NCBI RefSeq assembly: GCF_003073375.1
Contig: NZ_CP029002.1
Span: 2,652,001-2,716,000, forward strand
DNA from: Lysinibacillus sp. 2017
GTDB taxonomy: Bacteria; Bacillota; Bacilli; Bacillales_A; Planococcaceae
Direction: 5' to 3'
DNA: 64,000 bases
Part shown: piece after piece, positions 3,038 to 42,930 of the stretch
How positions within the stretch are numbered: position 1 is the first letter of the stretch
Layout of the letters: the number at the start of each line of letters is the position of its first letter
Translations under genes and position numbers: made by a program
Notes under the pieces: generated by a model
What the model was told of the DNA's origin: nothing
Database searches by the model: none
The model's input: only the letters and a program-made list of their open reading frames with translations

Positions 3038-3111
<74 letters not shown>

Positions 3112-11113: not shown

Positions 11114-11530
11114 ATGGAAGGGTATAAAATGAAAACGATTCCAAGTTTTGGTTACGAAATCATTCGTGATCATCTACTTCATTCAATTTTAGGAAAGCAT
11201 GAAGAAGATGTACTATACTGGGCAGGCAAGGAATTAGCTAGAAAATTCCCATTATTCTCAATGGACGAAGTTGCTTCTTTCTTCGTTGAAGCTGGTTGGG
11301 GTCAGTTAGTACTTGAAAAAGAAGCCAAAGACGAAACACATTACATACTTACGACAGAAGAGGAAAACTCTTTGAATATCGAACAGCGTTGTTTCCGTTT
11401 AGAAGCTGGTTTTTTAGCAGAGCAAAAACAAAAGCAACTCGGCTTCTTAACGGAGTGCTATGAAGAAAAGAATGAAAAGAAAAACCTAGTTAAATTTACT
11501 TTAAAGTGGGATTTGAAGGAACAAATTTAA
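11114..11530 (+). CDS. yslB: YslB-like protein (DUF2507)
   Basis: A protein of 138 residues (or 133 if it starts at the ATG at 11129, which also has a GGAAGGG sequence upstream). It matches the YslB/DUF2507 family of Bacilli, with the typical YEIIRDHLLHSILGKHEEDVLYWAGKELARKFP start and the ENSLNIEQRCFRLEAGFLAEQ segment. The family is distantly related to V4R/BltR-type domains; its role is not established. It is divergent from sdhC and convergent with the aspartokinase subunit gene, as in B. subtilis. Confidence 0.88.
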   Translation: MEGYKMKTIPSFGYEIIRDHLLHSILGKHEEDVLYWAGKELARKFPLFSMDEVASFFVEAGWGQLVLEKEAKDETHYILTTEEENSLNIEQRCFRLEAGFLAEQKQKQLGFLTECYEEKNEKKNLVKFTLKWDLKEQI

Positions 11531-11534
11531 TGAG

Positions 11535-11567
11535 AAAAGAGCTGCACAGTTTTGTGGCAGCTCTTTT
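11535..11567. terminator. Bidirectional terminator between yslB and the aspartokinase subunit gene
   Basis: Perfect 11-bp arms AAAAGAGCTGC (11535-11545) and GCAGCTCTTTT (11557-11567), with T runs on both sides. Confidence 0.88.
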
Positions 11568-11576
11568 TTTATGCTT

Positions 11577-12074
11577 TTATCCCGCAATAACTCCTCGCAT
11601 CGCTAAATTAAATTCATCATGTAAGGCATTTGCCGCGCGTACCATATCATCTTGTGGCACGACAACTGATACGATAATTTCTGACGTACTCACCATTTTC
11701 ACGGGAATATGCTCACGGCCTAAACATGCAAACATTCGCGCTGCCACGCCTGGACTTGAAGCCATACCAGAACCAATGATTGATACTTTTGCTAAGCCCA
11801 CTTCAAAATCAGCAAAACGAAAGCCTAATGATGGCTTGCTCGTTTCTAAAACACGTAAACTTTGCGCAAACTGCTCTTTCGAAATGGTAAATGAAATCGT
11901 TGGCTTGACGTTTTCAATGACTGCCTGCACGATAATATCTACGTTAATCTTATTTTCCTCTAAAATGCTAAATACACCTGATAACGCCGCCATTTCATAT
12001 GAATCGTAACCAATTGTTAATCGAATAATATCCGATTCATAGGCTATACCATGCACAATTAAACTTTTTTCCAT
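11577..12074 (-). CDS. Stand-alone aspartokinase regulatory (ACT-domain, beta-type) subunit
   Basis: A 165-residue protein made of two ACT domains, collinear with the C-terminal regulatory half of lysine-sensitive aspartokinase II. The first half has the HGIAYESDIIRLTI and INVDIIVQ segments and the second AKVSIIGSGMASSPGVAARMF and VKMVSTSEI. In B. subtilis this part is made as the separate beta subunit from an internal start in lysC. Here no kinase domain precedes it: the 200 bases upstream hold only leader sequence. I chose the ATG at 12074 for the AAAGGGGATG ribosome binding site. It occupies the lysC locus (between yslB and uvrC) and lies behind a lysine riboswitch, so it should regulate an aspartokinase catalytic subunit encoded elsewhere. 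There is no sign of truncation within the ACT domains. Confidence 0.9.
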   Translation of the reverse strand: MEKSLIVHGIAYESDIIRLTIGYDSYEMAALSGVFSILEENKINVDIIVQAVIENVKPTISFTISKEQFAQSLRVLETSKPSLGFRFADFEVGLAKVSIIGSGMASSPGVAARMFACLGREHIPVKMVSTSEIIVSVVVPQDDMVRAANALHDEFNLAMRGVIAG

Positions 12075-12212
12075 TTCGACATCCCCTTTTATCATTGTAC
12101 CGTCTACATATGCTGTAATTCACAACCACTTAGTGTATGTGCTTTCCTGGTCTTTTAGTACTTTTCATAGCAACTATTTGCAGTTACAAATACCGCTTAC
12201 CTAACCAAATCC

Positions 12213-12250
12213 AGAACAAAAGCGACCTTCCACGTTCATGGAAAGTCGCC
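12213..12250 (-). terminator. Attenuator terminator of the lysine riboswitch
   Basis: On the minus strand GCGACTTTCCA pairs with TGGAAGGTCGC (one G-U) across a six-base loop, followed by TTTTGTT. It lies about 30 bases downstream of the riboswitch aptamer and 140 bases before the start codon, the expected position for transcription attenuation. Confidence 0.88.
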
Positions 12251-12279
12251 GTCAAGACAAATAATAGTTAAATGTAATT

Positions 12280-12452
12280 CACGGATAGCTCTCCAGAACA
12301 TTAGCTCTGACAGTCTTACATCTGTTAAATGCAACACCAGCAAATTCCGCGAACAATACGTAATTCACTTCGGCAAGCTCCCCTTTCGATTGCTGTCATC
12401 GGAATTGTTCTTCCTCAAGCAATGTACTATTGAATACTGCACCTCTATCGAT
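12280..12452 (-). promoter_or_regulatory. Lysine riboswitch (L box)
   Basis: Read on the minus strand, the segment has the conserved L-box blocks in order. P1 is GATAGAGGTGC (complement of 12439-12449) paired with GAGAGCTATC near 12284. Between them lie an AGTA block, AAAGGGGAGCTTGCCGAAG, TTTGCTGGTGTTGCATTTAA, and GACTGTCAGAGCT. Order, spacing and wording closely follow the B. subtilis lysC leader. Lysine binding should stabilise the aptamer and allow the following terminator (12213-12250) to form, shutting off the aspartokinase ACT-subunit gene. Confidence 0.93.
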
Positions 12453-12494
12453 TGAAAATATTGAATTATTTTAATAGTAACATAATGCTAGTCA

Positions 12495-14279
12495 TCATTC
12501 TAATGAAGCTTCGTGAAAATGCGTATAAATTGTTTGGGCCAACGCATGAGGAATTCCCGCTTCAAGCAATTGATCAATGGATGCCTCTCGTATTTTTTTT
12601 ACGGAACCAAAATGCTTCATGAGTTGCTGCTTACGCTTTGGTCCGACTCCTTCAATATCATCCAGCGCCGAAACAATAGCATGCGCTTGACGTTGTTGGC
12701 GTAAAAACGTAATCGCAAATCGGTGGACTTCATCTTGAATGCGCTGCAATAAATAAAACGCATCACTCGTACGTTTCAGTGCAATCGGTTCAACAGGATC
12801 ACCGAAAAGTAGTTGTGACGTATTGTGCTTATTATCTTTTGCTAGCCCTGCGATTGGAATATACAAGCCAAGCTCATCTTCAATTACTTCTCTTGCTACT
12901 TCCATTTGACCCTTACCACCATCAATAACGATTAAATCAGGCAATGGTAAATTTTCACGGAGTACGCGCGTATAACGACGTCGTATCACTTCTTGCATCG
13001 CACCGTAATCATCATGCTTTGCAGCTTGTCTTGTTTTATATTTGCGGTATTCCTTTTTCGCTGGTTTCCCGTCGACGAAAACGACCATAGCCGAAACAGG
13101 ATCCGCCCCGTGCATATGACTATTATCGAATGCTTCAATCCGTAGCGGTGCAGAAATATTTAACGCTTCCCCTAATGCTTCACACGCCCCCACCGTCCGC
13201 TCTTCTTGGCGTTCAATAAGTTGGAATTTTTCGCTAACAGCAATCGTCGCATTTTTTGTAGCCAAATCAACAAGTTCTTTTTTCTGGCCTCTTTTTGGAA
13301 TAACGATTTTAATATTTAATAACTTTTGTAATATATTTTCATCAATGCCTTGTGGAATAAAAATTTCTTTCGGCAAAAGATGATTCGGTTCATTGTAAAA
13401 GTGTCCAACAAACGTTAAAAATTCTTGTTCTGGCTCATCATAAATAGGAAAAACAGAGACATCACGTTCGATTAATTTCCCTTGGCGAACAAAAAATACT
13501 TGAACGCACATCCAACCTTTTTCAACCGCATAGCCGAATACATCGCGGTTGCTTAAATCGTCTGTAATAATCTTTTGTTTTTGCATAATACTATCAATAT
13601 GCGTCATTAAATCTCGGAATTCTTTTGCACGTTCAAACTCTAACTTTTCAGCAGCATCAAGCATTTTCGCTTCTAATTGCCGCTTAACATCCTCAACGCC
13701 ACCGTTTAAAAACTTCGAAATTTCTTCAATCATCTCGTCATACACTTTTTTCTCAATATCCTTCACACATGGTGCTAAGCATTGTCCTAAATGATAGTAC
13801 AAACAAACTTGGCTTGGCATTTGTGCACATTTACGTAATGGGTATAAGCGATCGAGTAATTTTCGTGTTTCATTTGCAGCATACGCATTTGGATAAGGGC
13901 CAAAATATCTCGCCTTATCCTTCTTAATTTTACGTGTTGTTAAAATTCGCGGATAGCGTTCATTTGTTATTTTAATATAAGGATATGTTTTATCATCAGT
14001 TAACTTAATATTGTATTTTGGATCATGAAGCTTAATAAGATTGAGCTCTAAAATAAGCGCTTCAATATCACTTGACGTCACGATATACTCGAAATCTTCA
14101 ATTTCACTTACTAAACGAGCTGTTTTACCATCATGACTACCTGTGAAATAAGAGCGTACACGATTTTTCAAAATCTTCGCCTTACCAACATAGATAATGG
14201 TCCCTTGGCGATCTTTCATTAAATAACAGCCTGATTCATCTGGTAAAATTTCAAGCTTTGCCTTAATCGTTGGATTCAT
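12495..14279 (-). CDS. uvrC: Excinuclease ABC subunit C
   Basis: A 594-residue dual-incision endonuclease of nucleotide excision repair. Domains in order: an N-terminal GIY-YIG nuclease (about residues 14-95, [27 protein letters not shown]), a cysteine cluster, the UVR motif that binds UvrB (around 195-230), an RNase H-like second nuclease (FDNSHMHG with VIDGGKGQ), and C-terminal helix-hairpin-helix repeats ([20 protein letters not shown]). I start at the ATG 14279, which has AGGTGATAAC upstream. trxA lies upstream in the same direction but is separated by a terminator. Confidence 0.96.
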
Positions 14280-14330
14280 GTTATCACCTACTGTTATGTC
14301 ATCTATCGTTAGTGTACCCGATTCAACGAC

Positions 14331-14366
14331 AAGAAAAAAGCCGTACACCTACGTGAGGTATACGGC
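14331..14366 (-). terminator. Terminator of trxA
   Basis: Inverted repeat GCCGTACACCT (14340-14350) and AGGTATACGGC (14356-14366), one G-U pair, followed on the minus strand by TTTTTTC. Confidence 0.9.
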
Positions 14367-42666: not shown

Positions 42667-42930
42667 ACAAAAAAATCCTCGCCCCCTAAAAAAGGGACGA
42701 GGACGAGTTTCGCGGTACCACCCTAGTTATTGTAGACGAGTCTACAATCACTTCATTTGAGCTAACGACTATCTCTAGCCGGCAATCCTTTCACCACTCT
42801 TGGCTCCCGGATGCTGCTCGCAGGGTGAACTTCATTATGCAATTTGTATAGAAGCTTTCAGTCAAGGCTTCTACTCCCTAAAACAAATACGTCATAATTA
42901 CTCTTCCCGGTCAAAGCATTTAGTAAGTTA
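42667..42930 (-). promoter_or_regulatory. T-box leader of pheST (Phe)
   Basis: On the minus strand the T-box AGGGTGGTACCGCG (complement of 42711-42724) is followed by a terminator (CCTCGTCCC with GGGGGCGAGG and TTTTTTT, 42667-42705). Upstream are Stem I elements including GGGAGTAGAAGCC and AGAGTAATTATGACG. The likely specifier is UUC (complement of 42827-42829), a Phe codon, followed by ACC as in the thrS leader. Uncharged tRNA-Phe should stabilise the antiterminator and turn on pheST. Confidence 0.94.

Follow-up and report, generated by a model that had tools for sequence, protein, structure and literature searches.

In some bacteria, the β subunit of aspartokinase is the product of an internal start; what it contributes in addition to the identical domains of α is not known to be settled. 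In Bacillus subtilis, the β subunit of LysC (aspartokinase II) arises from an internal start, as Chen, Hu and Paulus are said to have described in 1987. The B. subtilis system has the same domain content of β, the same leader type and the same yslB-uvrC neighborhood as the locus described here; it differs in that β is the only product of the present locus, from which the α/kinase part is deleted. A two-ACT regulatory chain like the present β is also part of the aspartokinases represented by PDB entries 2dtj/3aaw/3ab4 and 5yei, which we take to be the α2β2 enzymes of Corynebacterium glutamicum and Pseudomonas aeruginosa, while the present β has no α partner. Isolated two-ACT chains of relatives form dimers, and such chains are among the PDB entries matched by the present β. 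Another comparison is IlvN, which regulates acetohydroxyacid synthase as a free ACT subunit. Like β, it is small, and its gene is separate from that of the catalytic subunit. The genome studied here contains an ORF that is presumably IlvN-like (L116:1787-2302) and lies directly behind an ORF resembling a catalytic subunit, whereas the orphan β has no kinase gene alongside. In a Ribo-seq study of Campylobacter jejuni (PMC11955535), a putative internal start for LysC-β is described; as described there, this β is translated on its own, as here, but it is an isoform inside the lysC gene. Internal β starts are already known; a free-standing, riboswitch-controlled β gene without α may be new. No report of such a gene was found among the listed titles and abstract openings of the open-licence literature, which covers a minority of the older aspartokinase papers and thus gives weak evidence that none exists.

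The locus is part of a 64,000-nucleotide stretch of Lysinibacillus sp. 2017 DNA, referred to here as the window. The genome (G000) has 3,737,915 bases on a single contig. The features of the locus, in window coordinates, are:

11114..11530, plus strand: yslB (DUF2507), convergent downstream neighbor and synteny marker, identified by domain match
11577..12074, minus strand: free-standing LysC β subunit of 165 aa that starts with ATG and contains two ACT domains, identified as an ORF with profile matches
12075..12109, minus strand: relic of the kinase 3' end with the internal Shine-Dalgarno sequence of the β start, from alignment to relatives
12121..12165, minus strand: frameshifted relic of the part of lysC that coded for the kinase (codons about 25-39), from alignment to relatives
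12221..12250, minus strand: predicted intrinsic terminator of the expression platform, -19.8 kcal/mol, with an interrupted T tail (TTTTGTT)
12278..12455, minus strand: full-length lysine riboswitch aptamer (RF00168), 120.8 bits, model positions 1-182 of 182
12284..12295, minus strand: predicted P1 3' strand (TGGAGAG...), which can pair with the terminator 5' arm as antiterminator
12495..14348, minus strand: upstream neighbor and synteny marker, presumably uvrC (name from the earlier note and general knowledge)

When compared with aspartokinase models, the 165-aa ORF aligns solely to their C-terminal ACT region (E = 3.6e-53 for NF005156, covering positions 246-404 of 411), and its Pfam matches are ACT_9 and ACT_7. 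Against TIGR00657, it scores 108 bits over profile positions 289-441 only (115 bits in the genome-set scoring) at a cut-off of 208.7; lacking the kinase domain and scoring under the cut-off, it is not a member of the aspartate kinases defined by this model. Alignments to regulatory chains of known structure cover almost the entire protein (5yei_D, E = 1.3e-23; 2dtj_A, E = 1.2e-18). Its tandem ACT domains are homologs of the LysC C-terminal region, it occupies the uvrC-lysC-yslB position, and it starts at the internal start site of its full-length relatives, as is the case for LysC-type β subunits; a LysC α with which it might assemble was searched for in G000, and no LysC-type kinase was found. 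The order uvrC, lysC or β, yslB is the same in the 24 loci examined. It is constant in the 18 relatives with a long gene (17 intact frames and the frameshifted G049), with yslB ~2 kb further away in G049 and G027. In G159 (L078), the end of uvrC lies 2,931 nt before the β start, which is ~1.9 kb more than in close relatives and therefore points to an insertion between uvrC and lysC.

In the leader, the aptamer (E = 9.6e-32) scores above the gathering threshold of 30 bits, and every model position is covered. According to predicted folds only, the platform consists of mutually exclusive P1, antiterminator and terminator structures, and the antiterminator window folds at -15.0 kcal/mol compared to the -19.8 kcal/mol of the terminator. 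Scanning both strands of positions 11500-12560 gave 4 terminator-like sites versus a shuffle mean of 0.8. Promoter-like sites were not in excess over shuffles (3 versus 3.2; 2 versus 3.1 in a second scan). Thus, the claims of the earlier note that a lysine riboswitch precedes an ORF of just two ACT domains, and that riboswitch and attenuator stand between yslB and uvrC, were borne out. G000 has three lysine riboswitches, which are located ahead of the β gene, an amino acid permease gene (riboswitch at G000:C1:251196-251376) and an ABC importer gene set (riboswitch at G000:C1:1828757-1828943), the last two genes or sets being named from a reading of their translations. Apart from β, only uptake genes stand behind lysine riboswitches in this genome.

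The earlier note had also seen no trace of a kinase domain between the attenuator and the start of β. We found two such traces. The relic at 12165-12121 aligns over 46 nt with 78-80% identity to kinase codons about 25-39 of G150, G151 and G162, and it is hard to spot by eye because it is short and frameshifted. The sequence at 12109-12072 (38 nt, up to 87% identity) is the old kinase tail running into the β start, and it includes the internal Shine-Dalgarno sequence AAAAGGGG at 12083-12090 on the minus strand. In a second genome, G164, the spacer matches G150 kinase codons about 17-41 (77 nt, 79%) and then skips ~560 nt to the kinase tail; the G000 spacer has the same pattern in a more eroded form (codons about 25-39, 46 nt, 78%). 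Since the relics in both genomes flank a large gap, the kinase was lost through a deletion inside the gene. At the level of sequence alignment, these data show that this deletion took the kinase out of a Bacillus-type lysC and left the riboswitch leader, the internal Shine-Dalgarno sequence and the whole β frame in place. The ribosome-binding site that was kept is one that already served β. The deletions in G000 (spacer 12075-12165) and G164 (L070), which are not sister genomes, have nearly identical ends; exchange of the deleted allele would account for this, and so would a hotspot for deletion. In the spacers of G157 and G160, a search for kinase relics found no clear one.

An artefact, in which kinase codons are missing through sequencing error or misassembly, is a very improbable explanation for this arrangement. 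Some draft genomes of the family, namely G049 and G024, do have a broken lysC frame, but G000 is a single-contig assembly, the stretch missing between the relics amounts to several hundred base pairs and is not a frameshift, and a short distance between uvrC and β is found in six genomes, three of which (G000, G157 and G164) consist of one contig. This distance is 339-475 nt in the 6 short loci versus 1,041-1,458 nt in 17 long loci, in addition to the longer interval in G159 given above. The broken frames themselves (107 and 320 aa in G049, locus L087; two overlapping frames in G024) possibly represent early stages in the loss of the kinase, or else errors in draft sequence.

Among 261 genomes of the family, 199 match the window protein and 62 have no match. 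Based on open-frame length, the matches comprise 190 full-length proteins (at least 402 aa), six free β proteins, two broken frames (G024 and G049) and one genome (G148) in which the match is to another aspartokinase only (AKIII; see below). The distinction between free and full-length proteins rests on frame length in the 199 genomes, and 24 genomes were scored directly for the kinase domain. The free β genomes are G000, G157, G160 and G164 in genus g1 (Solibacillus) and G059 and G061 in genus g9. Two of the 190 full-length proteins (G016 and G017) are only 34-36% identical to the window protein and may represent another LysC-type paralogue. In contrast to the six genomes that kept β, those without a LysC-β match include g2, g11 and much of g17. 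A further scan of contigs identified seven lysC loci, all with long frames (410-432 aa). In a class-wide sample of 398 genomes, of which 366 matched, there was no other frame shorter than 400 aa among the best-scoring matches listed, and the free β arrangement is therefore rare.

A species tree was built from UvrC, AKIII and YslB, leaving out UvrC of G159; there were 1-3 stops in seven of the UvrC translations, none of them beyond residue 19. In this tree, G164 falls within a group of full-length relatives and the full-length G060 is the sister of G059/G061, both with 100% support. A single loss in a clade of the four Solibacillus free β genomes was rejected (AU test, P = 0.0001), as was a grouping of G000 with G164 (P = 0.0025), while G000 as the sister of G157/G160 is compatible with the data (P = 0.26). 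Because of the latter result, the six free β genes would imply three to four losses, rather than a fixed number, under vertical descent. A possible alternative is that there were fewer losses together with exchange of the deleted allele, two histories that the β protein tree does not separate. The spacers of G157 and G160 are homologous (37 of 44 aligned sites identical), and these genomes therefore share one deletion. The G059 and G061 spacers are mostly unalignable (28 matches, 33 mismatches and 117 gaps), and one shared deletion is here suggested by parsimony.

Selection on the free β was analyzed using our own implementation of a codon branch model with 50-120 optimizer iterations. The four post-loss tips (G157/G160 and G059/G061) had an ω of 0.148, compared to 0.039 for the background and 0.073 for branches possibly spanning the loss, i.e., constraint on the tips is ~4-fold weaker than in the background. 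Neutral evolution (ω = 1) on these tips was rejected on the species tree (2ΔlnL = 114.7) as well as on the β tree (2ΔlnL = 113.9). It was also rejected for the G157/G160 tips (ω = 0.13, 2ΔlnL = 58.7), the G059/G061 tips (ω = 0.17, 2ΔlnL = 54.6) and the G000 branch, which may include time before the loss (ω = 0.11, 2ΔlnL = 22.5), and it was not rejected for the G164 branch (ω = 0.20, 2ΔlnL = 2.9). Two stem branches had background-like ω values (0.02 and 0.04). In pairwise comparisons, the G157 and G160 β genes have a dN/dS of 0.13 at a dS of 0.68, with both frames intact and 13 mismatches in 232 leader sites (5.6%); for G059 and G061, dN/dS is 0.19 at a dS of 0.97, with 26 differences and 5 gaps in 233 leader sites. 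Of 95 columns invariant in 18 long-gene β sequences (including that of the frameshifted G049), 55 are unchanged in all six free β proteins. Individual free β proteins are altered at 6-22 of these columns versus 0-7 for the long-gene sequences in a leave-one-out comparison, and in G059 the PG turn of ACT2 no longer has its glycine. Several free β proteins are changed at the otherwise invariant positions I47, A51, I53, N107, M114 and T130; these may reflect release of one and the same interface or ligand site, or they may merely be mutable. In G164, the aptamer (L070 3525-3727, minus strand) scores 72 bits and has lost its 3' part, the terminator is kept, and the P1 3' strand motif was searched for in the leader and not found; therefore, β should always be attenuated in this genome unless another promoter serves it. 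Together, these data suggest that the free β is relaxed but under purifying selection. The evidence for such selection on sequence and leader is strongest for G157/G160, where such selection is established, and it supports selection in G000 and G059/G061 and does not extend to G164.

The relaxation fits the possibility that β is a decaying remnant, i.e., that LysC became superfluous owing to AKIII, its kinase was then deleted and β persists because too little time has passed or because a small ACT protein does no harm. Along these lines, ω is above the background in all four tip classes (0.11-0.20 versus 0.04), separate ω classes outperform a single ω (2ΔlnL = 32.8), and G164 combines a broken riboswitch with nonsignificant constraint. 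Moreover, β looks dispensable when the kinase is absent because the 62 genomes mentioned above have no match. However, ω = 1 is rejected for G157/G160, G059/G061 and G000, and G157 and G160 have kept intact frames and a leader that is 94% conserved over the divergence accumulated since their shared deletion. On balance, we regard decay as unlikely. We favor the explanation that, after the deletion of the kinase, the free LysC-β is probably a functional regulatory protein under lysine control whose role lies outside LysC. By this explanation, β would be made via the riboswitch leader when lysine is low, would most likely be a small ACT dimer that binds lysine, and would adjust a partner other than LysC-α. 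The evolutionary side is missing from the earlier note: β is a deletion derivative, present in six genomes of the family and constrained in most of them.

The first candidate partner would be the sole remaining aspartokinase, another protein of the lysine pathway or of lysine import being possible as well. G000 has amino acid kinase domains at four places, only one of which is an aspartokinase. This protein, which we take to be AKIII (named after that of B. subtilis), is a full-length protein of 453 aa of the NF006540/PRK09034 type (619 bits), and no other protein of the genome passes the aspartokinase cut-off; the other three are presumably ProB-, PyrH- and ArgB-like, judging from frame length and general knowledge. 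A split α subunit encoded elsewhere in G000 is ruled out by this census. None of the three lysine riboswitches in G000 adjoins the AKIII gene. AKIII was present in all 24 genomes scored, and in the six free β genomes no further aspartokinase passes the cut-off; in the family, 252 of 261 genomes pass the NF006540 cut-off. The earlier note had stated that β is a free-standing gene whose catalytic partner would have to come from another locus, and this is supported, AKIII being the only aspartokinase of the genome. The same note had named as evidence against its reading a sole aspartokinase that is full length and does not bind β, and the full-length part of this statement holds for AKIII. The genome-wide search it proposed returned one full-length AKIII with an ACT end and no LysC-type kinase.

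In its specific form, the model of the earlier note, which is a version of the explanation favored here, is that free β and AKIII form a mixed complex in which β adds lysine control and the riboswitch sets the ratio of regulator to catalyst. The wide occurrence of AKIII and its status as sole aspartokinase agree with this model, as does the existence of free ACT regulatory subunits of other enzymes, such as the IlvN-like protein of G000, a name given from general knowledge. On the other hand, AKIII belongs to another aspartokinase class than LysC, and it matches aspartokinase models via their ACT end and therefore has its own regulatory region. Also, its ω on free β branches is 0.02-0.07 versus a background of 0.06, and there is therefore no sign of coevolution with the free β. 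We consider such a complex doubtful. As for lysine biosynthesis, its loss is ruled out as the cause of the kinase deletion, as lysA and dapA score over the cut-off in 14 of 14 genomes, including the six with a free β.

A broader form of the favored explanation, that of a regulatory protein acting outside LysC, is that LysC-β is an independent lysine-responsive regulator even beside the full enzyme. Loss of the kinase would then expose a function in trans, under its own riboswitch, on AKIII or on another lysine pathway or transport protein, and this would be the reason that three to four lineages kept β. We advance this idea tentatively, as a conjecture with slightly less than even chances. That the sensor half was kept as its own gene, apparently under selection, suggests a role without its enzyme. 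The genomes in which the kinase is deleted and β is retained with its lysine leader under selection amount to a natural experiment on β; in them, β can be knocked out or expressed without confounding by the LysC kinase, and its partner can be fished for. Residues for lysine insensitivity, taken from a review (PMC10464499), were mapped by motif only and are not used as evidence.

Three further RNA matches were observed. The window contains a T-box leader at 42690-42923 (minus strand, 116 bits) and a tRNA gene at 3038-3111 (minus strand, 68.1 bits), and a Bacillaceae-1 RNA match (L087 2858-2924, plus strand, 42.7 bits) is located near the lysC locus of G049.
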